From Spiroplasma taiwanense CT-1 (lineage in GTDB: Bacteria > Bacillota_I > Bacilli_A > Mycoplasmatales > Mycoplasmataceae): a stretch of 64,000 bases of DNA. Positions 34,406-53,755 of this stretch are shown here, piece by piece. The notes beneath the pieces are model-generated. The model searched no databases. It was not told the origin of the DNA and saw only the letters and a list, made by a program, of their open reading frames with translations. Location of the stretch: contig NC_021846.1 in assembly GCF_000439435.1 (NCBI RefSeq), positions 372,001-436,000 on the forward strand, read 5' to 3'. How positions within the stretch are numbered: the stretch's first letter is position 1; each line of letters begins with the position of its first letter. The position numbers and the translations under genes were made by a program.

Positions 34406-36715
34406 ATGCATAATCAGGAAAAAAATGATTTTCTTTTTGTTGAATGTCGTGATGTTGAAGTTCTTATAAATGAAATGAAAAAATATATTAAAAATAAAAA
34501 AATTATTGAAGAAGTTAAAAGAGCTTATTATTATGCTGAAGATAAACACAGAAATCAAAAAAGGAAAAGTGGAGATCCATTTATTATTCACCCACTTTCA
34601 ACAGCATATTATTTAGCACAATGAAGAATGGGGCCAAAAACAATTATTGCAGGTCTTTTGCATGATGTAATTGAAGATTCACCAGTAACATTTTCAGAAA
34701 TTGATGAACTTTGAGGAAATGAAGTTGCCGATATTGTTGAAGCAGTTACAAAAGTAAGTTATTTCACTAAAGAAAACCGAGAACAAATGAAAGCAAATTA
34801 TTTAAGAAAGTTATTTTTATCAATGATTCGTGATATTAGAGTAATTATTGTTAAAATTGCAGATAGAATGCATAATTTATTAACTTTAGGTTTTATGACT
34901 CTTGAAAAACAAAAAATAATTGCAAAAGAAACATTAGAAATTTATTCAACAATTGCTCATAGAATTGGTATGAAATCTGCAAAAAATATCTTAGAGGATT
35001 ATAGTTTTGAATTTTTAGATCCAACAGAGTATCAAAAAATTAAAAATTTATTAGAAGAAGATAAAGAATCAAGAAATGAAATAATTTATGACATGATTGA
35101 AGATATTAATAAAAGACTGAAAAATGAAGGATTAGCAAATAGTACATCAGTTTTTGGTAGATGTAAAACTATTTATTCAATTTACAGAAAAATATCACAA
35201 TTTGGAAAATCATTTACAGATATAAATGATATCTTAGCAATAAGAATAATTACTTCCAGAGTAGAGGATTGTTATCGTGTTTTGGGATGAATTCACCAGA
35301 TGTATACACCGCTTTCTGGAAGGTTTAAAGATTATATTGCAACTCCAAAAAATAATTTATATCAATCTTTACACACAACACTTGCAAATAAGGATGGTGT
35401 AATTTTTGAAGTACAAATTAGAACAAAAGAAATGGATGATGTTGCTGAACATGGTGCTGCTGCTCATTGAAAATATAAAGAAGGTGAGCATAATGTTGAT
35501 ATTGCAGAAAAACAAAAAGAAATTGATGAAAAAGTAGATATGTTCACAAGGTTAATGAATCTTGAAAAATTAGCATCAGAAGGTGTAGAAGTTGAATATG
35601 AAGAAAATCAACTTTTGGATTTTGAAAATGAAGTAGAAGAAACTTTTAAATCAGATTATCTTGCACCATTAATATATATATTAACTCCTGATGGAAATGT
35701 TGTAACACTTCCATTTGGTTCTACTGTTATAGATTTTGCATATAAAATTCATACAGAAGTTGGGAATAAAACAATTGGTGCAAAAATAAATGGAGTTTTC
35801 TCACCATATAATACAACTTTAAATTCAGGAGAAATGGTTGAGGTTCAAACTTCAAAAGAAGCAGTACCAAATGAAAAATGATTAAGATTTGCAAGAACTA
35901 GTGTTGCAAAAAAAGCGATTGAGCAATACTTATCTGAAGTAAGAAAAAAAGAACTTGAAAAGGAAAAAATTACAAATCAAAAAATTATACGAAATACAAA
36001 AAGAGAAATTGATAGATATATAATTGCAAATAATCTTAAGTGACAAGTAAAATCAATTGATGAAATTCAATTAAAGTTAAAAGTTTTAGATTATAAAAAT
36101 GTTGATGAATTTTTATTATCAGTAGGAAATGGAGATTTTTCAATTCCTGAGGCTGTTGATGTTGTTTATGTTTCAAAAGAAGAATTAAAAGATATTGAAG
36201 TTATCAATGATATGAAAACTAGAAAATATAAATCAGTAAAAGGAAGAGATGATTTAAAAATAAATGGTATAGATAAAGTTAATTGTACATTAGCACAATG
36301 TTGTTTTCCAATTCCAACTGAGCCAGTAACTAGTTTTATGTCAAAAACTAAAGGTATTCAAGTTCATAGAAGTGAATGTTCAAATATATTAAATATTAGA
36401 AAAGTTAAAAACTTATTAAAAACAGAATGAATTGTCAAAAAAATTAAAAATAAAACTTATAATACAAAATTAAGAATAACAACATATGATAGACCAGGAT
36501 TATTTTTAGATATTGTAACTGTTTTTGCTTCACAAAGAATAAATATTGTAGAAACAAAATTAATTTCAAATGAAGAAGATTATAGTGGTAAGGGAAGTAT
36601 AATAGTTAGTATAACAAATTCAGAACAATTAAATTATGTTTTAAAAAATTTAAGTGAAATACCAGGAGTCATAAAAGTATCAAGAGCAACAACTTCTGGA
36701 GATGATTTTAATTAA
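34406..36715 (+). CDS. rel: Bifunctional (p)ppGpp synthetase/hydrolase
   Basis: Rel (769 residues) makes and degrades (p)ppGpp, the stringent-response alarmone. The N-terminal HD hydrolase has LLHDVIEDS (about 83-91). The synthetase domain carries GRFKDYIATPKNNLYQSLH; its RxKD motif is the type found in bifunctional or hydrolase-competent enzymes rather than ExDD. TGS (about 425-485), a Cys-rich stretch (NCTLAQCCFPIP) and a C-terminal ACT domain follow. Many TGA codons read as Trp. It is monocistronic. Confidence 0.95.
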
Positions 36716-36773
36716 TTTACAATTATTTTACACCCATTGTTTAAGGCAAATATTATTTTAATTTTAAGTATGA

Positions 36774-36779
36774 TATAAT
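36774..36779 (+). promoter_or_regulatory. Extended -10 promoter
   Basis: TGATATAAT matches an extended -10 box, 23 bases before the GGGGG-containing start region of the next gene. Confidence 0.5.
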
Positions 36780-36802
36780 AATTAATATATTTGGGGGTTT
36801 TT

Positions 36803-37627
36803 ATGAAAAAAGAGATGGTCAATCTATCTATTTTAGAATTTGTTGAAGCTAATTTAGATTTTAATATTGCTTCAAATAGAAAAGAATCAGAATATGATTT
36901 TAATTTTACTAGATGAAAAACAATGATTTTTTCAAGTCAAAAGTTAAAATTTATTTTAAAATATGTTCAGTCTGTTTTTCAATGATTAAGTAAAGTTGTA
37001 AATGTTCAAAACTTTACAGTTTCAATTGATACAACAACAGTAGATAGATTTAATTTATCAGTTTATGAATTCGAAACACATATTTTTAATTGTTCATTAT
37101 TTACAAATTTTTATCTAATTCCAGAAGGTGATTGGTCTTCAAAAATTTTTGAAATGCATTTTTCCAAATATGATTTAATAAATGGCGATTTAATTATAAA
37201 AGAAGAAACAAACTTTTGAAAAGGTGAAGATGGTTTTGAAAAGTTTGTCAATATTCTTTATTTAATTATAAAAGAACCATATAAATTTGAAAAAAACTTA
37301 CCAGTACAATGACAAATTGACTTTAAAGATAAAAAATTGTCAAGTTCTCAAATTAGAATGCAACTTGCATCATTGGTTCAAACAGGAATTCGTCCAGAGG
37401 ATCCATATTTGACAATTGAACAAGCAATGAAAATTGAACAAGGTGCAAATCCTGAAACCATTGCACAAGAGCAAAAAGAGGTAAATTTATCAAAAGAAGT
37501 TATTAATCCAATTTGAGATGAAGCAATAGAACAAGAAAATAAATATAATGATTTGAATTTTGCAATGGCAAAATCTAGAGGTTTAATCCCTTTTGAAAAT
37601 AAGAAAAGAAATAAAAAAAATAAATAA
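36803..37627 (+). CDS. Unknown soluble protein
   Basis: This 274-residue protein has no membrane segment or signal peptide. The N-terminal 180 residues are mixed alpha/beta. The C-terminal part holds a helical DPYLTIEQAMKIEQGANPETIAQEQ segment and a Lys-rich end. I do not recognise the family. It has its own extended -10 promoter and a GGGGG site before ATG 36803. Six or more TGA codons read as Trp. Confidence 0.6.
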
Positions 37628-37744
37628 TTTTATAAAAAGTAAAAAATATTTTTAAATTATTAGAAAATATTTTTTTTAAAGTATAATAAATTTACTTATT
37701 ATTTAAAACTATATAATACTAACTAATTATAGGAGAGAAATTAG

Positions 37745-39592
37745 ATGAAAAATTATTAACTTTATTGGCTAGTGCTACTTTAATAACAAGTACTAGTGTA
37801 ACAGTTATTGCTTGTGGAGATAATGACCTGAGTAACCCAGAACCAGAAAAACCAGAATCTGGTTTTCAAGAATTAATTAACGATTTTAAAAAAGATCTTA
37901 CTACAATTAAAGATGAGTATTGAAGAGAAAAAACAGATAATTTCTTTTCATTAGTTGAATTTAATGAAGAAATATTTTATTTCTTAACAAAAGAAAAATA
38001 ACAACTTTAGTTGATAAAAATCAAAACCAACCCGTTACAAGTATTAACGAAGATGATAAATTTCTATTAAAAACTGATATTGAAAAAATAATTAAAATCG
38101 ATGAGTTGAAAGAAAAAATAAATTCATCAATTGATAAGGAAAAATATGGAATTTTAATTAATGGAAATAATTTTTTTTCAGGAATAGATTTAAATTGATC
38201 AACATTAGAAATTAATTATTCTAATGATAATTTAGAAAATCAAAAAGCAGGAGAAAACTTCATTTCTTATGTAAAAGTTGATTTAAATTTACAGTTTAAA
38301 TATAAAGATGAAAATCAAGAGGAAAAAAATTTAGATATAAATCAAAATTTTGTTTATATACTTACATCAAATCAAGCATTAATCGACGCAATTAAAGATT
38401 TAGAAAAAAATGTAAGTAGAAGTTTCTTTTTATCCGGAAGTGAATTTAGTTTTCTGGATAAAGAGGACTTTCAAATTGATTTAAATGAAACTTAAGAGTC
38501 AATATTTGGAGAAGATTTAAATTTTAAAAAAATTTATGAAAGTGAAGAATTTAGAGAATCAATTTTAGAGTTTATGTAGACTAAATATTTTTCAAGTTTT
38601 TCAAATTTACCATTAAAATTTAAAAACACTAACACATTTAGTGAAATTATTTTGCAAAAAACATTAGTTCAAAATGAGAAAAAATTGAAAAATGCTCTTG
38701 AAAATTATCAAGATGAATTATTATTTAATTCTATTTTTAACAAAATTACAGAAAATGATGAAGCTTTAATATTTGAGAAAAGTAATAAAAATATTAATTC
38801 TCCAATTTATAAAGAGATTAGTTCATCATTTATGAACGTTAATAATGAGTATGAAAAACAATTTGCAAGTGAAATAACTAATTTTGAAGCTTTGACAGGT
38901 GATAAACTTGATGATTCAGTAAAAGCAGTTGTAAATAATTCAATTAAATATTATGAAGTAAAATTAAAAAATCTTTCAATAAAAATTGGAACAGCTTATG
39001 AAAATCCAATTAATAATTTATCATTTTTTTCATCGTTGCAGTTACAAATGATGAAACTGCAGAAAATAGAGAAAATATTACAAAATCTAATTTATTTGGA
39101 GCAATGTATTACAACGTAATTTCAGGAATTAAATCATATCAAAATATTTTTGGAATTCTTGATAGTAATGAAAGCGAAGGAATACCAATCGCTAGTTTTA
39201 CAGGTATGTCAGCAAACTCAGAAAATGAATTAGAAAATCTTTGAAATATGTTTAAAGATCCATGACCTAATAATACTGCAGAATTACTTAATGAAAACTT
39301 ATCTTTAACATATGAAGGTTTAAACAAAAGTAGAAAAAGATTACTAAATGAAGGATTTCAAACTAAATTTAAATGAGGTTTATATAATGGAGGGCTTTCT
39401 GAAGAAGCACATAAAAATGTTATTTACATGATATCAAAAAAAGGATTAGAAGTTCTAGAATTACAAGATCCTCCTGGTCCTGTACTTCCTTCAATTGGTT
39501 TTTCACTTAACTTTATAGATATTAATTTTGAAATTAATAATAATGATTTAATAACAAAAAATACAACAATAATTAAAAGAGTTAATATTTAA
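37745..39592 (+). pseudogene. Lipoprotein gene, copy A (decayed)
   Basis: This is the dead copy of the lipoprotein found intact at 44921. After the ATG, an A-run of five where the paralogs have six or seven shifts the frame, so the signal peptide (LLASATLITSTSVTVIAC) is read in another frame. A further 1-nt loss near 38000, TAA and TAG codons near 38493 and 38578, and another shift near 39045 break it again. Pieces such as DFKKDLTTIKDEYW, INNLSFF and GAMYYNVISGIKS still match the paralogs closely. No permease or ATPase copy follows it. Confidence 0.85.
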
Positions 39593-40213
39593 TTTTGTTA
39601 GTATAAATTTTTAAATAAGAATAAACAACCTTAAAGAGACTAAAGTTTTGTAAAAGGTTTTTTTTAGAAAAATAGAGGAAAAGTAATTAAAATAACAATT
39701 AAAAAGTATATAAAGGGCAAAAAGTTAAAAATATAGTAAAAGATTTAAATTTAAAATTTAGTTCTCAATTACTAAAATGGTGCAATCCTTTTTGTATAAA
39801 GATGAAAGAAAATTAGACTATTTTGAAAATAACATGAAAGTTAAAAAAAAGAGTACTTACTTTCATATACAAGATTAGAAGTTGCAAATTTCTTACATAC
39901 CAATAAAAATGTTATGTTTTAAATATACCAAAACATTCATATTATAATGAATTAACTTATTTATAAAAAAAATTGTTACCTCTATTTATCTAATATTAAT
40001 TAAAAAAATATTATTAGTTCAAAATGAATTATCTATTTTAAATAAAAATAAAATAATATTTAAAAATATGAAAAAATCGAAGTTCAATTTTATTGATTCT
40101 AATTAAGAATTAAACTTTAATTTAAACAGCAATATTTTTTAACCCTTTTTTTAAAGTATAGTAATTAATACTTATTCATTAAAAATATTAAACGTTCTAT
40201 AAGGAGTATTAAC
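39593..40213 (+). other. Non-coding stretch with possible decayed transposase or gene remnants
   Basis: No open frame of useful size is present in 620 bases. A short segment near 39716-39780 reads KGQKVKNIVKDLNLKFSSQLLKW, here given as KGQKVKNIVKDL and LNLKFSSQLLKW. It vaguely resembles the helix-turn-helix start of IS3-type transposases. The rest is AT-rich with many stops, and the promoter of the next lipoprotein copy lies at its end. Confidence 0.3.
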
Positions 40214-42043
40214 ATGAAAAAATTGTTATGTTTTTTAGGAAGTTTTACTATATTGACAAGCACATCAATTAGTGTTATTGCTTGTAATTCAGATTTAAAA
40301 GATTTAGATGAAAATAATCAATTTGATTTTCAAAAATTAGTAGAAGATTTTTTAAAAGATCTTACTACAATTAAAAATAAATTTTGAAATGAAAAAAATG
40401 ATAGTTTTTTTGCTTTAACTGAATTTAATGAGCAAGAGTTTGCTTTTTTGGAAAAAGAAAATATAATAAAATTAGTTAATCAAAATAATAATAAACCTGT
40501 TGACAATTTAAGTGAATCGGATAAAACTTTGCTAATTCAAGATATCAAAAAGTTACTTTCGGAAGATGAATTAAAAAGTAAATTTGATTCCTTATTAAAT
40601 AAGGAAAAATATTCGCTTTTAATTAGTAATTCAAATTATTTTTTGAGTTTTGATTTTGATTGAAGCACATTAGAAATTAATTATACAACTCAACAATTAG
40701 CAAATAAAAATTTTGAAAAAAATGAATCGTTTATTTCCTATGTAAAAATTGATACAATATTGCATTTTAAATATTATGATAATAATTTTGAGCAAAAATT
40801 TTTTGACTTAAATCAAAAATTTGTTTTTACATTGACAACAGATGGATCATTTATGGAATCAATAAAGAATTTTGAAAAAAATATCAAATATAATTATTTT
40901 TTAAGTGGTCAAAAATATAGTTTTCTGGATAAAGATAATTTTGGAATTGAACTAGATAAAAATTCTGATGATATATTTGATAAAAAAATAAATTTTAGAA
41001 ATGTTTATGAAAATCAAGAATTTAAAAATAACATAATTAATTTTATTAAAAAAAAATATTTCCAAAATTTTGAAAATATTCCTTTAATTTTTAAAGAGAG
41101 TAATATTTTTGGAGAATTCATTTTATTAGAAGAATTTTAAACTTATCAAGATTCTATTTATGAAGTTCCAATTGAAATGGAGTCTGAAAAATTATATGAT
41201 TCTATTTTTAATAGAATCACTTAAGAAGACTCAAAAATGATTTTTAATACTAATTCATCACAAATTAACTTATTTATATATAATGAATTAAATTCAATAT
41301 ATATAAAAAATTATGAAGTTTATACTGAAAAATTAAATAAACTTGTTATTGAATTACAAGAAGCTTCAAATATTTTTTTATCTGAAGCTGCAAAAGATTT
41401 TTTATAAAATTCAATTAAAATTAGTGAAGTTAAATTAAATAATCTTTCAATTAAAATTGGTTCTTTATATGAACACCCACTAAATAATTTGTCTTTTTAT
41501 ACGTCAATTGCAGTTACAAATGATGAAACAGAGGATAGTAGAGAAAATCCTGTTAGGTCTAATTTGTTTGGAGCAGTGTATTATAATACAATAACAGGAA
41601 TTAAATCATTTCAAGATGTTTTTGGAATAGTGGATAGAAAAAAGAATGAAACATTCTCACCATTAGCAATTTTTACTGGTAAAACTAATGATTTCTCTGA
41701 AAACTTATGAAATAATATTTTTTTTGAATTATCTAATGCTGAAATAAATAAGTGATTGTCTTTAAATAAAGAAGAATGAATAAAGCCTAAAGAAATATTA
41801 TTAGATAATGAAAGACAAAGTAAATTTTCATGAAATATTTTAAATAAAGTTGATTCTTTTTGAAATGAAAATAGAGCGGTTTATTGAAAACAAGATTCAA
41901 CAGGAATTAGAATAAAACAAAGTTTTGAGCAAATAGAAAGTCAAGTAATATCTATAGAATTTAATTTTATTAAAATAAAATTTAAAATAGTAGATGTTTT
42001 TTGAAAACAAGAAGAAAAATTGATTTTTCAAAGAAAAATATAA
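40214..42043 (+). pseudogene. Lipoprotein gene, copy B (three premature TAA codons)
   Basis: This copy keeps one reading frame over 609 codons with an intact signal peptide and lipobox (SISVIAC) and an AAGGAG site. It contains TAA at 41138, 41222 and 41405. The segments between the stops still align with the intact copy (for example LSFYTSIAVTNDETE and GAVYYNTITGIKS). The absence of frameshifts and the three separate nonsense changes suggest recent loss. A truncated protein of about 308 residues could still be made and exported. Confidence 0.85.
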
Positions 42044-42051
42044 AATATAAA

Positions 42052-43761
42052 AAATAAATTTCCTTTACACAACTCAATTCCTTTTATGATTTTATTACTA
42101 TTTAATATTAAGTTCTTTAGCTTTTGGAATTATTACTAGTTTTACTAACTCTCAAGCTTCTGTTATTAAGTACTTTAATTTTTATGTTTTATTTTATATA
42201 TCTTGCTTATTATTTATTTTAATTCTAAGAATGGTTCAATTCTTTTTTCATAATAAAATTAAAGATAAAACCATTTTTATTGCACTATCAAATCAAGTCT
42301 CAAGATTAAAATTATTTATAAGTATTTGAGTATTAATGTTAATTGTAGCAATTTCAAATTTCGTTATAACATTCTTGTTAATTAATTCTTTAAATTTTTT
42401 ATCATCTAGTTTTATATTTAATGAACTTCTTTTTAAAATAACATTGACTTTTTTAATTTATGTGTTTTATCTAGTATATTTTTAGTAAATTTCATAATAT
42501 TTTTAATTTTTGTTTTTTCTTTACAAACTACAACAGTAATTTGTACTTTATTATTATCTGTTTCTTTTATTGCAAATTTACCAATGAGTTTTCAACAAGC
42601 AAATGAAAAAAAATTAACTATTAATTTTAAAAAAAATGGAAGTGAAATTCAAATAAGACTTCCTGAACTTTATGATTCGTTTTATTTGCAAAAATATGTA
42701 AATGAGGAAAAAATGAAATATAAAAATATTTCAAAATGAATTAATGATATTTTTATTGAAAATCAATATTATTTAAATGATTTTTCTTCCGATAATTCAT
42801 TTATTCACAACGAAAGAATTGATGCAGTTTTAAAAGAATTGGGTGCTATAAATACTTCTTCAAAAGTAATTAAAGCAAATAACTTAGAAATTAGAACTTT
42901 AACCTCAATAAATTCAAATATTCCAGTTAAATGATCAAAGGGCGATAAAGTAGATGTTGAATTAACTCTTAACAATACATTTATTTCTATTGAGCAACTT
43001 GAACAAAAAATTTTAAATGAATTAAATGAAGTTAAAAAGCAAATATTACAAGATCTATATGATTTTGCACTTTATATTAGAAAAGAATTTTTTGATTTTC
43101 AAAAAGAAAAAACTGATTTATTTGATAAATATATATTTTTAATAAATGAAAATAATGAAAGTAAAATGATAAATACATCAAAAGATTATTCCGAAATTAC
43201 TTTTAAAAAAGAATATTTAAAATCAATTTATAATTATAGATTAGATGGAAGTTATAATGGTGATTACTTTACATTTACAGATAATAGTGTAACTAATTTA
43301 GTAAGAAACGACTTGAATTTTGAATTAATGATAGTAGCTCTAATACTTGAACAATATTTTATTAAATATACTAGCAATTATTTAAATGCTATAAATAACT
43401 CAGTTTCTATTTCTTCAGGAGACTTTGAAAATATATAAATTCAAGAAATAGTTTAAATATACTTTCATATATAAACTTATATAGTGGTATGTGATCTGCA
43501 TATACACTATACTCTGGTTTTTCATATGAAGATTTCTGATTTTTATCTTCATCTGATTCTAAAATTGCTTTTGATGAACAAAAAAACATGTTTCTTGGCT
43601 ATACAGAATTTTCTTTTAAAATTGATGATGGCAACAAAATTATTGGAGATTCCTACAATAATTATATTAATCCATTAATTTATGTTTTTATACTCATAAT
43701 TTTTTCAATGATAATATTTATTTTTGAAATTATAAAATTTCAGAAAAAAGATTTAAGCTAA
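42052..43761 (+). pseudogene. Large-ectodomain permease gene, copy B (decayed)
   Basis: This is the broken counterpart of the permease at 46818. The first 60 bases after the expected start are shortened, with a shift near 42110. Another break lies near 42480, where the frame changes after FLIYVFYLVYF. The ectodomain is readable (NTSKDYSEITFKKEYLKSIY) until TAA at 43436, followed by a shift and an intact last membrane helix. The DNA matches the live copy closely around FSLQTTTVICTLLLS. Confidence 0.8.
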
Positions 43762-43768
43762 AGGGGGT

Positions 43769-44745
43769 GTATTAAAATTAATAATAAAAAAAAATGAATT
43801 AAATTATATAATTGAAGTTAAAAATTTTAATAAAAAATTTAAAAAGAATTTAGTTGGTAAATTTTCTTTCAAAATAAGAAAAGGCGAAATTACAGCTTTG
43901 CTTGGTGTTAGTGGTAGTGGAAAGTCAGTTTTAATTAATTCTATTGTAGGATGTTATAAAAAGTATTCAGAAGATATTAAAATAAATAAAAAATCCATTA
44001 AAAGTCAAGGTGGTTATAAACAAAATATAAATATTGGATTTTATACTCAAATTGATTTTTTCTTCAAACTCTTACTTTAAATAAATATTTAATGAATATG
44101 TCATTAATAATGGGAATTAGAAAAAAAGAAGTAAAAGCGAAAATTAAATATTGAATTGATTTTTTTGAATTAACAAATTCAAAAGATAAAAAAATTAGTA
44201 ATTTTTCATGAGGAATGAAAAATAGAGTAAATCTAATTTTAGGCCTTTTAAAAGAACCAGAAATTTTAATACTTGATGAACCTGGTGCAAACTTGGATTC
44301 ATATTGAAGAAATAAAATTAAAAATTTATTAATTCAATATAAAAATGAAGGTAAAACAATAATTTCAACTTCACATAATATTGATGAAGTTAGTGAAATT
44401 ATAGATAATTTCTTAGTTATTGAAAATGGGAAATTATTATTTGATGGATCAACAACAGATTTAAATATTTATTCTAAATATAAGATATTTACTACTGAAA
44501 AATATGATGTTGACGAATTTAGAAAATTTTTAGAAAATAAGTCAATTAAATCTTTTAAATTCGATGAGCAAGAAAACTCTATTACAATTGCAATTGATTA
44601 TTACAGAGAATTAAATTATATATTTCTATATTTAATTAAAAATAACTTACCTTTTAGCAATTTATTAAAATTACCAATAAATATGAAATCAATAAATAAA
44701 GTCCTAGAAAGTAAAGTAAAACCTGGTTATAAAGAAAATAAATAG
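43769..44745 (+). pseudogene. ABC ATPase gene, copy B (frameshifted)
   Basis: The ATPase counterpart has an intact Walker A (GVSGSGKS), signature (FSWGMKNR) and Walker B (ILILDEP), but the frame shifts at a T-run near 44058 (after FYTQIDFF). It also lacks a good start codon: the expected ATG lies behind a nine-A run out of frame. After the shift, the frame is open to TAG at 44743. Confidence 0.8.
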
Positions 44746-44780
44746 AATTTTATTAACCAAAATATTAAAACATAATTATA

Positions 44781-44810
44781 AAAAACCTTAAAAATATTTT
44801 TAAGGTTTTT
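44781..44810 (+). terminator. Terminator after copy B module
   Basis: AAAAACCTTAAAAA and TTTTTAAGGTTTTT form a stem with a 2-base loop. Confidence 0.85.
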
Positions 44811-44846
44811 TACGTTATATAAAAATATTTTATATAACGTAAAAAA
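44806..44846. repeat. 19-bp inverted repeat overlapping the terminator
   Basis: Positions 44806-44824 pair perfectly with 44828-44846 around a 3-base loop. It shares its T-run with the preceding terminator and lies directly before the -10 box (TATAAT at 44853-44858) of the intact lipoprotein. Confidence 0.85.
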
Positions 44847-44920
44847 ATGTTATATAATTAAAATAGATTTACAAATTTCAAATTTATTTGTATTATCTGA
44901 TTAGTAAAGGTGAAAATAAT

Positions 44921-46804
44921 ATGAAAAAATTATTAAATTTATTGGCAACAACAAGTTTAGTTGCAAGCACATCATTAACAGTAATAGCATGTGGGAATAA
45001 TTCAAATTCAAATGAAACTGTTCCAGATCCAAATGAAAAAGAACCAGAACCAGAAGTGGTATATGAAGACGTTTTAAGGGATTTTGAAAGTGATTTAACT
45101 TCATTTAAAGATACTTATTGAAATTCAAAAAAATCTAATTTTTTTGCATCAACAACAGGTTCAGAATCTAAACAATTTTTTATTGAAGAAGATATTAAAA
45201 AAATTGTTGATAAAGCAAAAGAACCTGGAGCTGAGACTAATATATATGATATATTAACTACTCCACAAAAAGGTGCATTAAAAACAGATATTGAAAATAC
45301 ATTAGCAGCTTCTGAATTAACATCTTATTTTAGTAATAATATCGATAAAGAGAAATATTCAATTTTATTAGATGGTAGTGATCTTGGTCCAACTTTGGAT
45401 TATGATTGAAATACGCTTACAATGGACTATACAAATGATGCTCTTGGTGGTGAAACATCAAACTTTATTTCTTATACTTCAGTAGATGTAAAATTTGTTT
45501 TTAATTATAAAGATAAAATTGGAGAAACACAAAAATTTGAAATAACTCAAAAATACATTTTTACATTGACATCTGATAATTACTTAATTCAAGCAATTCA
45601 AGAGATGGAAAATAAAATTCAGACTGATTATTTTTTAGCAAATGAAAAATATAGTATTTTAGATAATTCAAATTTTGATTTAAAAGACGAAAACTTAGGA
45701 AATATTTTTGGAACATCAAATGATGATATGAAAACTGCATTTGAAAAAACTTATTCAAGTGATGATTTTAAAAATAATATTACTTCATTTATTACAACAA
45801 ATTACTTTGAAAATTTACAAAATATTCCATTGGAATTTGCTCCTGGTTCACTTATCTTCCAAAGTTATAGTGAAACAGATTATTTAAAAACAGATACTTC
45901 TTATAACAAACAACTAAGCACACCTGCAGGATTAAATATTTATAATAATATTTTTAATAATATGAAAACAGAAGGAAGCACTACTTTAATGGGTGCAACT
46001 GTAAATAATGTAAATAATATAATTCATGCGGATTTAAGAAGTAATTATACAAATTATTTAAGTAGCTTTAATACTAAAATTAATAATTTTGTAGAAACTT
46101 TAAAAAATAGCAGTGAAATAGTACCAACAGAAACTTTTAGTGAAAACTTAAGTAATTCATTTTCATATGGAATAGTGAAATTAAAAGGATTAGAAATTAT
46201 TTCAGGAGATTATCACCACCCAATTAATGAATTATCAATTTACACTTCATTAGCAGTTAAAAAAGATGAAACAAAAGAAAATAGAGAGGCAGCTACTGTA
46301 TCTAATATTTTTGCTGCAATGTATTATAATACAATTGCTGGAATTAAAAAATTTCAAGAAATTTTTGGAATAGTTGATAGAACTGATACTGGAGAAGTAT
46401 CCCCACTAGTTAGATTTACAGGTACAAGACAAGGAACAGAGTATGATTCAAATCAAAATATTTGGTCTCAAGGATTTACAGCTGATAATAATCAATATTT
46501 GAATAAATTAAAACAAAGTATGAGTTTAACTACTACAAACTTAAAAAAATTTAGAGATTATATACTTAATGAAAGTAATCAAAGAATATTTAATTGAGCT
46601 CTTTATAAAGAAAATTTTTCAACAACATCAAATATTGGTCTCTCAAAAAATACAAAAGGTATTTATATAAAATATAAATATTATAATGGTGAACCGTCAT
46701 TAAATATTCATTTTGAACAAAATTTTGTTAACTATTACTTTAATGTAGCTGAAATTTGAACTTCAAGTGGAACAGTTGTAATAGAAACAATGCCCACAGT
46801 ATAA
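44921..46804 (+). CDS. Lipoprotein of ABC module, copy C (intact)
   Basis: This 627-residue lipoprotein has a signal peptide and lipobox (SLTVIAC, lipidated Cys near residue 26), then a Pro/Glu-rich linker (PDPNEKEPEPEVV). The mature part is Asn/Thr-rich. Conserved blocks shared with copies A and B are FLANEKYSILDN, INELSIYTSLAV and AAMYYNTIAGIKKFQEIFGIVD. I do not recognise a domain. ATG 44921 is chosen because AAAGGTGA lies before it and the paralogs start MKKLL. It is the first gene of a three-gene unit with a permease (13 bases on) and an ATPase. It probably acts as an external partner of the transporter. Confidence 0.85.
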
Positions 46805-46817
46805 TTCGATAATTTAA

Positions 46818-48581
46818 ATGAACAAAAAATTATTCTTATATAAATCAATTCCATTTAGAGTTTTGCTACTTTTTAATATCAAAAATATATTTCATGAATT
46901 AGTATTTTTAATATTGAATACATTATTAATTTTTAGCTCATTAGTCTTTGGAATTATTTCAAGATTTTTTGATACACAAGTTTCACTATTAGTTGCATTT
47001 AATTTTTATATATTATTTTTTATATCTTGTTTATTATTTATTTTAATTTTGAGAATGGTTCAATTCTTTTTTCATAATAAAATTGAAGATAAAACTACTT
47101 TTATTACACTTTCTAACCAAGTATCTAGAACAAAGTTATTTCTTAGTACTTGATTTTTAATGGTTATAGTTTGTATATTTAATTTCTTATTATCTTTTAT
47201 ATTTATAAATTTTTTAAACTTTTCATTAAATAAATTTAAATTAAATGAATTGCTATTAAATATTACTTTAGTATTTTTGATTTATGGAAGTATTTGCAGT
47301 ATTTTATTAGTAAACTTTATAATATTTTTGATTTTTGTATTTTCTTTGCAAACAACAACAGTAATTTGTACTTTATTATTGTCACTAAATTTTCTTGCAA
47401 ATTTGCCAACAAGTTTTCAAACTGCAAATGAAAAAGATATGACAATATATATTGAAAAAAATAGTACACCAATTGCAATTAAATTAACAGATATTCAGGA
47501 TGCATTTTCATTACAAAAATATGTAAATGAAGGAAAAATTAAATATAGTCACTTATCAAAATGAATTAATGATAAGTTTCTTGAAGCTGAATATTATGAA
47601 AATAATTTTACTACAAATGAACAAAACAATAGAATTAGATTGGAAAATGTTTGACAACCATTAGGTATAATCAAGTCTAATCCAGATCTAATTGAAAGAA
47701 AAAATTTAAAACTTTATACAGTTCCTTCTACAGATTCAGCAATTGATACTTCTATTTGAAAAGCCGGAGATACTATCGATATTGATTTGCAATTAGACTA
47801 TTCATTTGTAAATATTGATGAATTAAATAGAATGGCAAATGAGGAAAGTGACTTAGAAATAAAATTAATATTAGAAGATTTATTTAATTTTGCAAATTAC
47901 ATAAAAAAACAATTTGCATCTGATCTTCAAATTGAAAAATATAATTTATTTTCAGATTTTATTTTTGTAAATTCAAATAGTAAAATTATAAATAAGAGCA
48001 AAAACAATGTGACAATTCCAATTAAAAAAGATTATTTAAAAACAATTTTTGAATTTTATTTAAAAGGAAATTATTCTAGTGGATATTTAACATTAGATCC
48101 AACTACAGCAAGGCAATTTGTTACAAATGATTTAAATTTTGAATTACTGTTTATAACTAGAATATTGGAGAATTACTTTATAAAATATACAAGTCATTAT
48201 TTAAATACAGTAAATTATAAATTACTATTAAATTCTGGAGATTGAACTAAATATGAAGAATCAAGAAAAAAATTAAATCTTTTTTCATATTTTAATGTTT
48301 TTAATGGTTTATGAACAAACTATACATTTAATTCAGGATTTTCATATGAGGATTTCTGATTTTTACCAAGTTCAGAATCAAAAATTAATTTTGCTGAACA
48401 AAAAAATTTATTTTTAGGATATTCTGACTTTACCCTTAAAAGAAATGAATATGATAAAATTGATCAATATTCATATAATAACTATATTAAGCCATACTAT
48501 TATTTGATCGCTTTGTTAATTTTTTCATTAATTACTTTTATATTTGTAATATACAAATTTCAAAAAATAGATTTAAAATAA
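46818..48581 (+). CDS. ABC permease with large extracellular domain, copy C
   Basis: This 587-residue membrane protein has about five hydrophobic segments in the first 200 residues (the last ends FSLQTTTVICTLLLS), an ectodomain of about 340 residues, and one C-terminal helix (about 558-580) with a short basic tail. The gene between a lipoprotein and an ATPase, with this topology, fits the permease subunit of an ABC exporter or lipoprotein-handling system. No known permease family signature is visible. Nine or more TGA codons read as Trp. It is the live copy; copy B is broken. Confidence 0.75.
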
Positions 48582-48597
48582 AAGTTAGGTGATGAAT

Positions 48598-49542
48598 ATG
48601 AGTACAATTATTGAGGTAAGTAAATATAATAAAAAGTTTAAAAAAAATTCAGTTGGAGAATTTTCTTTTATGATTAAAAAGGGAGAAATTACAGCTTTGC
48701 TTGGTGTTAGTGGTAGTGGAAAGTCAGTTTTAATTAATTCAATAGTTAGTTGTTATAAAAAATTCTCAGGTAATATTAAAATTAATGAAAAATCAATTAA
48801 AAAAGCTGGGGGCTTTAAGCAAAATATGCTTGTAGGTTTTTATACTCAGATTGATTTTTCATTACAAAGTTTTTCGCTTATTCAATTTCTTTTAAATATG
48901 TCTATGATAATGGGTTTGAAGAAGAAAGATGCGAAGGAAAGAATAAATTATTGAATTGATTTTTTTGAACTAACTGATTCTGCAACAAAAAAAGTTAAAA
49001 ATTTTTCATGGGGAATGAAAAATAGAGTTAATTTAATTTTAGGTTTTTTAAAAGAACCAGAAATTTTAATACTTGATGAACCTGGAGCAAACTTAGATTC
49101 ATATTGAAGAAATAAAATTAAAAATTTGTTAATTCAATATAAAAGTCAGGGTAAAACAATTATTATTACATCTCACAATATTGATGAAATTAGTGAAATT
49201 ATTGATAATTATTTAGTTATTGAAAATGGTAAATTACTATTTGAAGGAACTACAAAACAATTAAATATTTATACTAAATATAAAATTTATGTAAAAGAAG
49301 AATACGAAGTAGAAAATTTTAGAGAGTTTTTAAATCAAAGAAATATTAAATCATTTAAATATGATAACATTGAAAATTCGTTAACTATTGCAATTGCAAA
49401 TTATAAAGAGTTAAATTATATATTCTTATATTTAATTAAAAATAATTTACCAATGAAAAATTTAGTAAAATTGCCAACAAATATGGAATCAATTCATAAA
49501 GCTTTAGAGGATAGTGCTGCAAAGGAAAAAAATAATAAATAA
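48598..49542 (+). CDS. ABC transporter ATP-binding protein, copy C
   Basis: This 314-residue ATPase has Walker A GVSGSGKS (36-43), a signature FSWGMKN (about 137) where LSGGQ is usual, Walker B ILILDEP (about 156) and the H-loop His in TSHNID (about 191). The last 90 residues form an extra domain (VENFREFLNQRNIKSFKYD and later) seen in exporter-type ATPases. The non-standard signature is shared with copy B. The start ATG 48598 has AGGTG six bases before it; earlier GTG and ATG are too close. It powers the permease upstream. Confidence 0.9.
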
Positions 49543-49669
49543 TTTATAATTATTTATTTAAAAATACAATTTTTATTAAATTACTATATAATAAATAAAG
49601 CGTTATTAAAACGCCTCTTTTGATGTAAGTTTTTTTACCTTATAAGAGTTTTAGAAAGGTGGAAATACT

Positions 49670-49849
49670 ATGGCATTTGAAAATAATAGAGATAGAGACA
49701 GAAGTAGAGATAGAAATAGATCTGGTTTTTCAGGTAATAGAAGTCAAGGTTCACAAAATAATGGTAGAATCGAAAACTTTGAGAAACCTTTAATTCAATT
49801 ATTAAAAGAAATTAATGAAAAGCTAGATATTTTAATTGAAAAAAAATAA
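49670..49849 (+). CDS. Arg/Asp/Ser-rich small protein
   Basis: This 59-residue protein has a disordered first half made of RDRDRSRDRNRS-type repeats with Gly and Asn, and a C-terminal amphipathic helix (FEKPLIQLLKEINEKLDILIEK). It has a strong AAAGGTGG site, its own TATAAT near 49584 and a clean terminator. RD/RS-rich tails usually bind RNA, and the helix could mediate dimers. The role is unknown. A leader with two short hairpins precedes it. Confidence 0.75.
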   Translation: MAFENNRDRDRSRDRNRSGFSGNRSQGSQNNGRIENFEKPLIQLLKEINEKLDILIEKK

Positions 49850-49850
49850 T

Positions 49851-49897
49851 AAAATAACTTATAAACTTTAAAATTATGTTTATAAGTTATTTTTTTT
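49851..49897 (+). terminator. Terminator of the small Arg-rich gene
   Basis: AAAATAACTTATAAAC pairs perfectly with GTTTATAAGTTATTTT around an 11-base loop. Confidence 0.9.
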
Positions 49898-49902
49898 ATT
49901 AT

Positions 49903-49950
49903 TTTTTGGTTGTTTTTGGTTGTTTTTTATCATTTTTGGTTTATTATAAT
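49903..49950 (+). promoter_or_regulatory. Phased TTTTTGGTT repeats and promoter of the fructose operon
   Basis: TTTTTGGTT occurs three times with GGTT at 49908, 49918 and 49938, so spacing is 10 and 20 bases and faces one side of the helix. A perfect -10 box (TATAAT, 49945-49950) follows the last repeat. This fits a DeoR-type operator over the promoter of fruR. Confidence 0.6.
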
Positions 49951-49964
49951 AATGAGGTGAAAAA

Positions 49965-50669
49965 ATGCTACGTGAAGAAAGATTGAAATTAATTTTGGAT
50001 TTTGTCAATGAAAGAGGATATTGTACAAATGAATTAATTTCAAAAGAACTTGCTATCCCATTCACCACTCTAAGAAGAGATTTGACAGATTTACATGACG
50101 ATTCAAAATTAAAAAGAGTTCATGGTGGTGCAAAATCTATTAGAGAAAAATCTATTTTAGAGGCTAAATTAGATGAAAAACTTGTCTTAAATATAGAAGC
50201 AAAAAAAATAATTGCTAAAAAAGCATTTGATTGTATTAAACCATTCGAAACAATTTTTTTGGATGCAGGTTCAAGTACATATTTTTTAGCAGAATTAATT
50301 AAACCAGATTACAATAATAAAGTTTATACAAATTCAGTTATTAATGCCCAAGTTTTGGCAAATAACTCAATTTGCAATATTTATCTATTACCTGGTAAAT
50401 TAAAATTATCTACTGGTGCAATATGTGGGGTTGAAACTATTCAAGCTCTTTCAAAATATAATTTTGATCTTGCATTTCTTGGAATTAACGCTGTAGATAA
50501 TACATTTAATTTCTATACAACAGATGAAGATGAGGCTGAAGTAAAAAAAATGGCTATTGAATATTCACAATTTGCTTTTGGTTTAGCAGATAATTCAAAA
50601 ATGAATTCTAAATCATTTGTAAAATTTAGTGATAAATCACAAATAGCACTTATAAATGAAGAGGTTTAA
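49965..50669 (+). CDS. fruR: DeoR-family regulator of fructose operon
   Basis: This 234-residue DeoR/GlpR regulator has an N-terminal winged helix (REERLKLILDFVNERGYCTN, then STTLRRDLTDLH-like, seen as FTTLRRDLTDL) followed by VHGGAKS and a sensor domain with LDAGSSTYFLAELI and LGINAV. It normally represses fruK and fruA and responds to fructose 1-phosphate. The order fruR-fruK-fruA is the usual one. ATG 49965 has GAGGTGA before it. Confidence 0.88.
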   Translation: MLREERLKLILDFVNERGYCTNELISKELAIPFTTLRRDLTDLHDDSKLKRVHGGAKSIREKSILEAKLDEKLVLNIEAKKIIAKKAFDCIKPFETIFLDAGSSTYFLAELIKPDYNNKVYTNSVINAQVLANNSICNIYLLPGKLKLSTGAICGVETIQALSKYNFDLAFLGINAVDNTFNFYTTDEDEAEVKKMAIEYSQFAFGLADNSKMNSKSFVKFSDKSQIALINEEV

Positions 50670-50671
50670 AA

Positions 50672-51610
50672 ATGATTTATACATTAACATTAAACCCAGC
50701 AGTAGATCACATTATTTTAACTGATAAAAAAATTGAACTTTGCATTACCAATTATTACCATGATGAATATAAAGTAGTTGGTGGTAAAGGGATTAATGCT
50801 GGGATTATTTTAAAAAATCTCGATACTGAAATAATGGTTATTGGAATTTTGGGAGAACAAAATAAAGAAATTTTTACTAATAAATTTAGTGAAATAAATT
50901 TAAATAATAAATTTTTCTTAAATAATGGTTTGACAAGGGTTAACTATAAAATTAAAAATTTAAATTCAAAACAAGAAACAGAATTAAATGGTCTTGGTTT
51001 TGAAACACAAGATGAAGTTCTAAAAGAATTAATTTCTTTTTTAGAAGATAATCTTAAAAAAGAAGATATTGTTCTTTTAACAGGAAGTGTGGCAAGAGGA
51101 ATATCAAAAAATATATATCAAAAAATAGGCCAAATTGTAAATGATAAGCAAGCAATCCTAATATGTGATGCAACTAATGAATTATTATTAAATGTTTTAA
51201 AAGAAAAACCATTTTTAATAAAACCTAACTTAGAAGAAATTTGTTCAACTCTGAATTTAGAATATAAAGAAAATATTAGTTTTGATGAAATTAAAAAATT
51301 AATTATTGAATTGCAAAAATTGGGAGCACAAAATATTCTTTTAAGTATGGGTTCAAATGGAAGTATTTATTTTGATTCAAAAAATAATATTTATAAAGTT
51401 GGAATTGCAAAAGGTAATCTTGTAAATTCAGTTGGAGCTGGAGATAGTATGCTGGCAGGTTTTATATATGGTTTATATAAAAAATTAAATATAGAAAAGA
51501 CACTACAATATGCAGCAGCAAGTGGAGCTGCAACAGCATTTACTGAATGACTTGCTTCAAAAGAACAAATTGAAAATTTAGTAGAAAAAATAAGCATTGA
51601 AAAAATATAG
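50672..51610 (+). CDS. fruK: 1-phosphofructokinase
   Basis: FruK (312 residues) phosphorylates fructose 1-phosphate to fructose 1,6-bisphosphate. It is a PfkB-family kinase: LTLNPAVDH at the start, VVGGKGINAGIIL near 36-48, LLTGSVARG near 137, and the catalytic NSVGAGDSMLAGF near 251 with its Asp. It starts 2 bases after fruR ends, so translation is coupled. It feeds glycolysis from the PTS product. One TGA codon reads as Trp. Confidence 0.94.
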
Positions 51611-51619
51611 GAGGTTCTA

Positions 51620-53755
51620 ATGGAACTAAAAGATTTATTTAGTAAACAAATTAGTTTCTTTGAAGAAGATTTAAATTCAAAAGATGAAGTAATTGAATTT
51701 TTATCAAAAAAACTTCAAGAACAAAAATTTGTAAAATCTGCAGAAGACTTTAAAGCAGCAGTATATAAACGTGAATCTGAAGGTTCAACAGGTGTTGGAG
51801 ACGGAATAGGTATTCCACATGTGTTAAACAAAACAGTTTTAAAATCAGCAATTGCTTTTGTAAAATTAAAAAATAAAATTGATTGACAATCACTTGATGA
51901 TCAACCAGTTGACTTAGTTTTTATGATTATGACAAATGGAGTTGATAGTGATGAACATTTAACTGCTTTAGCTGAATTATCTGGTTTTTTAATGAAATCA
52001 GAAATTCAAACAAAATTAAGAAATGCAAAATCAATTAAAGATATTGAAACTGCATTTACTAAAAAAGAAGTTAAAGAAGTTAAAACTTCAAAAAATGGAC
52101 ATTTTGATGTTATTGGTATAACAGCTTGTCCTACAGGAATTGCACATACTTATATGGCAGCAGAAAAATTAGAAGAGTATGCAAAGTCATTAAATATGAG
52201 TGTAAAAATTGAAACTCAAGGTAGACGTGGAACTGAAAATAAACTTACTGATGAAGATATAAAAAATGCTAAAGTAATTATTTTAGCACATGATAAAGCA
52301 CTTCAAGGTATGTCAAGATTCAATGGTGTTGAAGTAATTGATACACATACAAAAGAGGCAATTTTTAAAGGAAAAGAATTAATTTCGGGGTTTTCAAGAA
52401 ATCCTGATAAAAAAGTTATTAATGTAGCAGATGATGGAAGTTCATCAAATGATGAATTTTCATTAAGAAAATTCTTAGACTTTAAAGGTAATTTATTAGC
52501 TGGAGTATCAAGAATGTTACCATTTGTTGTTGCTGGGGGAATCATATTGGGAATTGCATTCCTAATAGACTTTATAGCAGGAACTCCTGGTGGTAAAGAT
52601 TTTGGTACAGTAAATGAAGCAGCTGGATGATTTGCTGCAATTGGTAAAACAGCAATGTCAATTATGGTACCAGTGTTAGCTGGATATATTGCATATACAA
52701 TTGTAGGACCACAAGGATTAATGCCAGGATTTGTTGCTGGACTACTTGCTGATGGAAGTGGTTTTGCATATGGTGGAGTTGGTTCTTGAAGTGGACTATG
52801 AATAAAATTATTCCCAAATCAAGATATTCCAATGGTTTCTGGATTTATTGGAGGAATGGTTGGTGCATATGTTGCTGCCTTAATTATATTTGGATTGATG
52901 AAATTATTTAGTAAATTTACTAAATCATTCCATGGTGTTCGTGATATTGTTTTAGTACCAGTGTTATCACTATTATTAACAGCTTTAGCAATGTTTGTAT
53001 TAAACATTCCTTTAGGATATACAATGTGAGGAATAAAAGAAGGTTTATTATTCCTAACAAAAACAAAAGAACTATTACCATTATTAGGAATGATTATTGC
53101 TCTAATGATGTGTGTTGATATGGGTGGTCCAATTAACAAAATTGCCTATACTTTAGGAACTTTAAGTGTTGGGGGAGGATTAGGAGATGATCCTAAACTA
53201 ACAATTATTATGGCAGCTTCAATGGCTGGGGGAATGATTCCACCATTGGGAATTGCTTTATGTAATGTATTATTTTCAAAAGTTTGAACTTCAAAAGAAC
53301 GTGATGCAGCAAAAGCCAACTGATTAATGGGAGCATTCTTTATTACAGAAGGTGCAATTCCATTTATGATTACTGATGCAAAAAGAATTTCAATTTCAGC
53401 ATTAATTTCTGGAGCAATTACTGGTGTATTAGTTGGGCTATTTGGAATTACTTTAGGAGCTCCACATGGTGGGGTTGCAGTATTTCCATTACTTGAATTT
53501 ACAGCATTTGATGTAGCTTCAGGAACAGCATTAGCTAAAGGACTTGGAGTAAGTTTATATATACTATCAATTATTATTGGTACTGTTATAATGGCTTTAA
53601 TTTTAGGATTCTGAAAAACAGCAGATGTTAAAAAAGGAAAATTAGTTTTAGCTTCTTCAAATGGTGTTAAAGAAAATATTGAATTTAAAATTAAAAAAAT
53701 TAATGAAAATAAAAACATTTCAAATGCAAAAAAAAAAAAAAATTATCAGTTTTAA
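51620..53755 (+). CDS. fruA: PTS fructose-specific IIABC, C-terminus cut at a poly-A tract
   Basis: This 711-residue PTS permease imports and phosphorylates fructose to fructose 1-phosphate. IIA comes first, with the phosphorylated His in GIGIPH (about 67). IIB has the active Cys in [14 protein letters not shown] (about 169). IIC follows from about 285, with many membrane helices and GAPHGG near 615. A run of 15 A at 53728-53742 puts the last codons in a frame ending NYQF and stop. The -1 frame past the run continues as [14 protein letters not shown] to 53868 (a charged coiled-coil tail of about 42 residues). Sixteen A would give the long form. Confidence 0.93.

Follow-up and report, generated by a model that had tools for sequence, protein, structure and literature searches.

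What does the lipoprotein-permease-ATP-binding cassette (ABC) ATPase module of Spiroplasma taiwanense CT-1 do, and how many copies of it does its locus hold? The module lies in a stretch of 64,000 nucleotides (contig NC_021846.1, positions 372,001 to 436,000; the window, whose own numbering is used within it), where an intact operon, copy C, follows the decayed genes labelled copies A and B. Reading frames of the 1.086-Mb genome were translated with code 4, and the lipoprotein and permease of copy C are referred to as P0001 and P0002. The original prediction saw here three copies of a surface export or lipoprotein-handling system, perhaps for antigenic variation or host contact. An even chance is given below to an ABC-2 (type V-like) exporter working with an external lipoprotein that faces a ligand or the host. 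The module represents a large uncharacterised gene family in genomes of the Spiroplasma-Mesoplasma type; a literature search for a lipoprotein-permease-ATPase system of this kind found nothing.

Permease, ATPase and the proposed exporter family

In P0002, transmembrane helices (TM) 1 to 5 lie inside residues 25-193 and TM6 at 557-585, as counted by hydropathy (the structure model is of low confidence), with a domain of ~355 residues (about 203-557) between TM5 and TM6. With the N-terminus inside, the domain falls outside and the lone C-terminal helix is an ordinary ABC-2 TM6. The extracellular domain of about 340 residues and single C-terminal helix described originally were borne out. Six helices per subunit with an outer loop before the last define the ABC-2 layout, and P0002 has it.

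No match to P0002 was found in Pfam or NCBIfam, in line with the original statement that its family could not be recognised, but the statement does not extend to distant permeases. A deep family member (L090) matches ABC2_membrane_4 (8e-5), and a distant permease from another mollicute family (L092) matches ABC2_membrane_2 at 1.6e-7, above cut-off. Profile comparison over the N-terminal helices (hhalign probability 33-94%) also ties the family to permeases from other families of mollicutes; the majority share its order of five TM, a domain and one further TM and adjoin an ATPase. From these comparisons we infer that the copy C permease belongs to ABC-2, as an exporter with an enlarged TM5-TM6 loop.

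The catalytic set of the copy C ATPase is complete, comprising Walker A GVSGSGKS, signature FSWGM (49003-49017), Walker B ILILDE, a D-loop GANLD and an H-loop TSHN (motifs at 48703-49179). The protein matches PF00005 at 5e-23, is nearest to DrrA (TIGR01188, 4.6e-38, under that model's curated cut-off) and has ABCA1/3/4 as its nearest PDB entries, ABCA1 first. By its Walker A, signature, Walker B and H-loop it is of exporter type. FSWGM in place of LSGGQ was correctly read in copy C but is no peculiarity of that copy. FSWGM or YSWGM occurs in 25 of 40 readable signatures of permease-adjacent ATPases, and deep branches have FSSGM, YSSGM, FSLGM or FSYGM. FSWGM as the mark of a dead or odd ATPase was therefore ruled out, being the family norm. 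A defence role was also rejected, as PADLOC matches were confined to generic ATPase regions.

Permease matches occur in 44 of the 60 genomes of the family, up to 18 (some of them split) in a single genome, and in 56 of 248 genomes of the order, a few weak N-terminal matches included. Copy numbers in genomes G042 and G044 come from fragments and are upper bounds for intact genes. The original prediction hung on the three genes occurring together elsewhere, and they do: lipoprotein-permease-ATPase on one strand is the usual order in the genus of the window, with exceptions. Mesoplasma seiffertii and M. grammopterae are among the family members, and Mesoplasma loci are ordered ATPase-lipoprotein-permease-lipoprotein. 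No relatives were found among viral contigs. Conserved gene order, an ATPase nearest DrrA and ABCA, and the ABC-2 Pfam matches of distant permeases together favour an exporter, and the surface export proposed originally fits.

Such an exporter would be built on a permease dimer, each subunit contributing five helices, the ~355-residue outer domain and TM6, and would be powered by the ATPase with its full catalytic motifs. The Sec-exported lipoprotein would sit on the outer face; it would dock through its conserved N-terminal part on the ~355-residue permease domain and reach ligand or host with the quickly evolving C-terminal third. ATP use would expel a ligand caught by the lipoprotein, or act on the ligand from outside; a membrane-active peptide or lipid would be the most plausible ligand. 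In many species a coil-rich cytosolic protein may act jointly with the ATPase.

Known ABC-2 exporters (DrrA/B, NatA/B and ABCA-like proteins; type V) include the nearest ATPases and share the N-in topology of five TM, outer loop and TM6, and it is their ABC2_membrane Pfam models that distant members of the permease family match. The module differs from them in its ~355-residue TM5-TM6 domain, a permease with no Pfam match, a dedicated lipoprotein and a tryptophan at the third position of the signature. BceAB likewise has a permease with a large outer domain. However, BceB has ten helices and a domain of 200-250 residues between TM7 and TM8 (PMC5786555), whereas the permease here has six predicted helices and carries its domain in the loop from TM5 to TM6, which places the module outside the BceAB type.

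Several points weigh against the exporter. P0002 and 19 of 20 aligned relatives have no ABC-2 Pfam match at E ≤ 1, and the remaining one matches at E 0.49. Structure models are weak (pLDDT 61 for the permease, and 52) because the input was limited to sequences from the window and loci L049 and L050 (alignments of 6 and 10 rows). Foldseek and VIA-align on the permease model gave no credible relative, with middling Z values on helical stretches, and Foldseek on the lipoprotein model gave none. In the genomes of group g9 that were examined (L046, L047 and L088), permease and ATPase have no adjoining lipoprotein, so the lipoprotein may not be obligatory. Finally, outward transport, docking of the lipoprotein on the permease and the class of substrate are deduced.

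Variability of the lipoprotein

P0001 has an LP_plasma signal and lipobox and no other family match. In searches with P0001 and ten neighbour proteins (mostly homologues), no named lipoprotein family was found in a library not verified to include the MOLPALP model; matches were to signal-peptide models, with a spiralin match in the signal region far under cut-off. The original statement that no family could be recognised for the lipoprotein holds literally, apart from the signal-peptide model. Homology between lipoprotein and permease was undetectable (hhalign probability 0.3%).

The lipoprotein is the fastest-changing component. When complete triads were compared pairwise, identity ranked lipoprotein < permease < ATPase in 188 of 190 cases. 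The following selection data come from relatives, comparisons of copy C with its orthologs being near saturation. Recent duplicates in G042 and G044 gave ratios of nonsynonymous to synonymous substitution rates (dN/dS) of 0.08-0.16 for the permease, 0-0.09 for the ATPase and 0.36-0.78 for the lipoprotein; such values indicate strong purifying selection on the permease and the ATPase of these relatives. Across 13 independent recent lipoprotein pairs, the segment equivalent to residues 480-599 of P0001 was the most variable (proportion of nonsynonymous differences, pN, 0.12-0.18 versus 0.04-0.10 elsewhere). In two G044 pairs dN exceeded dS in this block (0.116 versus 0.057 and 0.281 versus 0.126), and the balance of nonsynonymous and synonymous changes inside it departed from that in the remaining sequence (Fisher p 3e-4 and 3e-3); two other G044 pairs had ratios near 0.5. 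As the block was picked after the clustering of differences had been seen, the Fisher and binomial p values are optimistic; the profile across 13 pairs carries more weight. A block dN/dS above one, resting on few synonymous changes, is suggestive only. In the L075 lipoprotein pair, the N-terminal half is near-identical and the C-terminal half has diverged block-wise with a raised proportion of synonymous differences (pS), which points to recombination. Hypervariability of the C-terminal third fits contact with the host, as proposed originally, or with a ligand.

A lipoprotein beside a pump recalls LanI with LanFEG, and it is conceivable, if somewhat unlikely, that the module expels antimicrobial peptides in that way: a peptide from host or competitor would be bound by the lipoprotein and ejected from the membrane by the pump. 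The arrangement has precedent, since ejection of membrane-inserted peptides by a lipoprotein and an ABC pump is established for LanI/LanFEG, the nearest functional analogue, and for CprABC (PMC5786555). The copy C ATPase matches the lantibiotic-protection model TIGR03740 (4.9e-32, under the curated cut-off), and expansion with ligand-facing diversification would suit varied host peptides. However, Cpr-type permeases are heteromeric, of 27-29 kDa and six helices (PMC5786555); LanFEG and CprABC have two such permeases, whereas each module here has just one, which is 587 residues long, includes a domain of 355 residues and falls outside their definition. No peptide-binding homology was found in library searches, nor was a two-component regulator noticed next to any cluster that was read. 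LanI is also much smaller than the copy C lipoprotein. The module is a concrete candidate for the means by which wall-less bacteria associated with insects and plants cope, at their membrane, with molecules from hosts or competitors.

ATPase sharing and a fourth protein

Three features of the system are new: sharing of the ATPase, a coil-rich fourth protein or ATPase tail, and a lipoprotein that changes faster than its two partners, chiefly within the C-terminal third. Permeases outnumber family ATPases (E ≤ 1e-60) by 5:1 in G032, 7:1 in G046 and 2:1 in both G037 and G038. A single ATPase must cover between two and seven permeases in these genomes, although a more distant ATPase may serve the others. 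In G042, G044, G035 and G029 there is about one ATPase per permease.

The fourth protein combines an N-terminal domain of ~45 residues and, at the C-terminus, an EINNFIxKLEE motif with a middle part that is coil-rich or of low complexity. Whole-genome search found it in 15 of 20 genomes of the genus, with weaker local matches also in G032 and G046, and it often adjoins the ATPase. In G032, G038 and G046, ATPase and fourth protein lie in the relA-deoR block and the permeases far off. In S. taiwanense itself one gene for it is intact; it lies at 519 kb and adjoins a decayed cluster. The Mesoplasma ATPase carries a tail of up to ~600 charged residues poor in glycine and proline; in M. seiffertii, a shorter ATPase is accompanied by a separate coil-rich protein of 465 residues (L049:6503-7900), encoded between permease and lipoprotein. 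A similar protein was seen in G055 (L030). Homology of the 465-residue protein (g11) to the fourth protein was unsupported (hhalign 1.5%), their likeness being architectural.

In group II energy-coupling factor (ECF) systems, one ATPase is shared. The one family ATPase for two to seven permeases in G032, G046, G037 and G038 resembles this design; the differences are that the parts here are of exporter type, permeases are mostly paired with lipoproteins and the ratio is ~1:1 in the other four genomes. A decidedly unlikely reading is that of a modular surface machine of mollicutes, in which an ATPase tied to a scaffold, possibly linked to the cytoskeleton, would energise several permease-lipoprotein heads with diversifying outer ends. 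Just as doubtfully, the scaffold would be the coil-rich cytosolic protein, separate or fused as a tail, and the whole an exporter-type counterpart of the ECF arrangement. If true, this would mean several interchangeable heads per ATPase. The module is in any case a test case for exporters sharing one ATPase.

Decay, duplication and setting of the locus

The original description of copy C as intact, copy B as having three genes each broken differently and copy A as a lone dead lipoprotein was confirmed by reading frames and tblastn (Table 1). The copy B permease is in pieces (42056-43686) over three frames with ~15 codons missing after residue 22, and Walker A (43904) and FSWGM (44203) of the copy B ATPase are both still readable. 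No permease or ATPase remnant adjoins copy A (tblastn, E ≤ 1e-3), whose lipoprotein is nearer to B (45% identity) than to C (36%), and locus L072 of G042 has the order lipoprotein-lipoprotein-permease-ATPase. On these three grounds, copy A is probably the second lipoprotein of module B. Graded decay therefore holds, in two modules rather than three. Direct repeats of 250-300 nt (71-81% identity) link the copies in constant register, far beyond chance. Inspection by eye suggested a transposase remnant at 39.6-40.2 kb, between A and B, but this was not confirmed.

Table 1. Coordinates of the module genes and adjoining hairpin in the window
Feature	Position	Strand	Details
Copy A lipoprotein gene, decayed, three frames	37783..39574	+	tblastn of P0001
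Copy B lipoprotein gene, decayed	40214..42043	+	one frame; in-frame stops at codons 309, 337, 398
Copy B permease gene, decayed	42056..43761	+	tblastn of P0002, 49-68% identity
Copy B ATPase gene, decayed	43799..44745	+	frameshift ~44057, between Walker A and signature
Copy C lipoprotein gene, intact	44921..46804	+	627 aa; lipobox Cys at residue 24-25; NCBIfam NF038029 LP_plasma above cut-off
Copy C permease gene, intact	46818..48581	+	587 aa; 5 TM, outer domain ~203-557, TM6 557-585; family alignment
Copy C ABC ATPase gene, intact	48592..49542	+	316 aa; full motif set
Terminator-like hairpin 3' of copy C	49597..49617	.	scored on both strands

Outside the window there are two decayed clusters, at 512-519 kb and 532-539 kb, and an intact one on the minus strand at 728-732 kb. 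In this genome only copy C and the distant 728-kb paralogue are intact. In a permease tree, into which broken copies were entered as joined pieces, copy B grouped with the 532-539-kb copy (100/96) and C stood next to that pair (100/99). The 512-kb copy joined this group loosely, and the 728-kb copy fell in a separate deep clade with G035 copies. This topology implies at least two duplications in this lineage and shows that the nearest kin of B is not its neighbour C. Repeated duplication and loss, as first proposed, is supported by this decay and from the family's spread and copy numbers.

Three further explanations are less likely than the exporter. It is improbable that the lipoprotein is cargo, moved or displayed by the pump after Sec export, as in the lipoprotein handling first proposed. 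Linkage of lipoprotein and pump is constant, and some genomes have more lipoprotein genes than transporters (for example, G035, with the lone pairs L102 and L103). Yet the lipoprotein brings a Sec/lipobox signal of its own, there is no outer membrane in mollicutes to which it could be sent, and numerous orphan lipoproteins are encoded in places remote from pump genes. Both L102 and L103 are tandem pairs adjoining the same two-gene transposase-like pair, a context which suggests that mobile elements helped lipoprotein spread.

Antigenic variation, with the decayed copies a silent archive recombining into the expressed lipoprotein, is very improbable. Block-wise divergence in the otherwise near-identical L075 genes and the several decayed copies in this genome would suit it, but decayed lipoproteins in or near the window are 35-38% identical to that of C, too far for homologous conversion, and permease and ATPase decay alongside. 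Repeat analysis found no invertible or homopolymer switch. As neither a switch in expression nor a phase-variable tract nor a silent cassette that could act as donor was identified, this part of the original prediction was not upheld. Least probable of all is an importer with the lipoprotein as classical solute-binding protein, since the superficial likeness of the three genes to an uptake operon is countered by the lack of a binding-protein family match, by an ATPase and distant permeases of exporter type and by a variability pattern unlike that of a nutrient receptor.

The A-C block is flanked by a conserved 271-aa gene and deoR, which are adjacent in most relatives (~93 bp gap in L106 and L107). 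The module is absent from this site in 19 of 19 relatives, indicating that the block is an insertion in this lineage. Within copy C, gaps are 13 bp between lipoprotein and permease genes and 10 bp between permease and ATPase genes. Three terminator-like sites were found in the region versus 0.4 expected. Directly 5' of copy C there is an A/T-rich palindrome (44813-44845; ACGTTATATAAAA...TATTTTATATAACGT), a possible operator or terminator. Between copy C and deoR lies an unlisted open frame of 59 aa (49670-49849) with an RD-rich start and an amphipathic-looking end, whose sole match elsewhere is partial (L107:15337-15423).

The wider block of relA, the 271-aa gene, deoR, fruK and the fructose phosphotransferase system (PTS; 34406-53755) is kept in most genomes of the genus with minor interruptions. 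Pieces of the system (ATPase with fourth protein, or lipoproteins) occur in or beside the relA-fructose PTS block in G032, G038, G046, G029 and G036. Some clusters elsewhere have recurring neighbours (L018:12764-18001, L083 and L084), namely a ~310-aa protein with predicted terminal helices, further lipoproteins and secreted-looking proteins of ~700-990 aa, which may form a second surface system.

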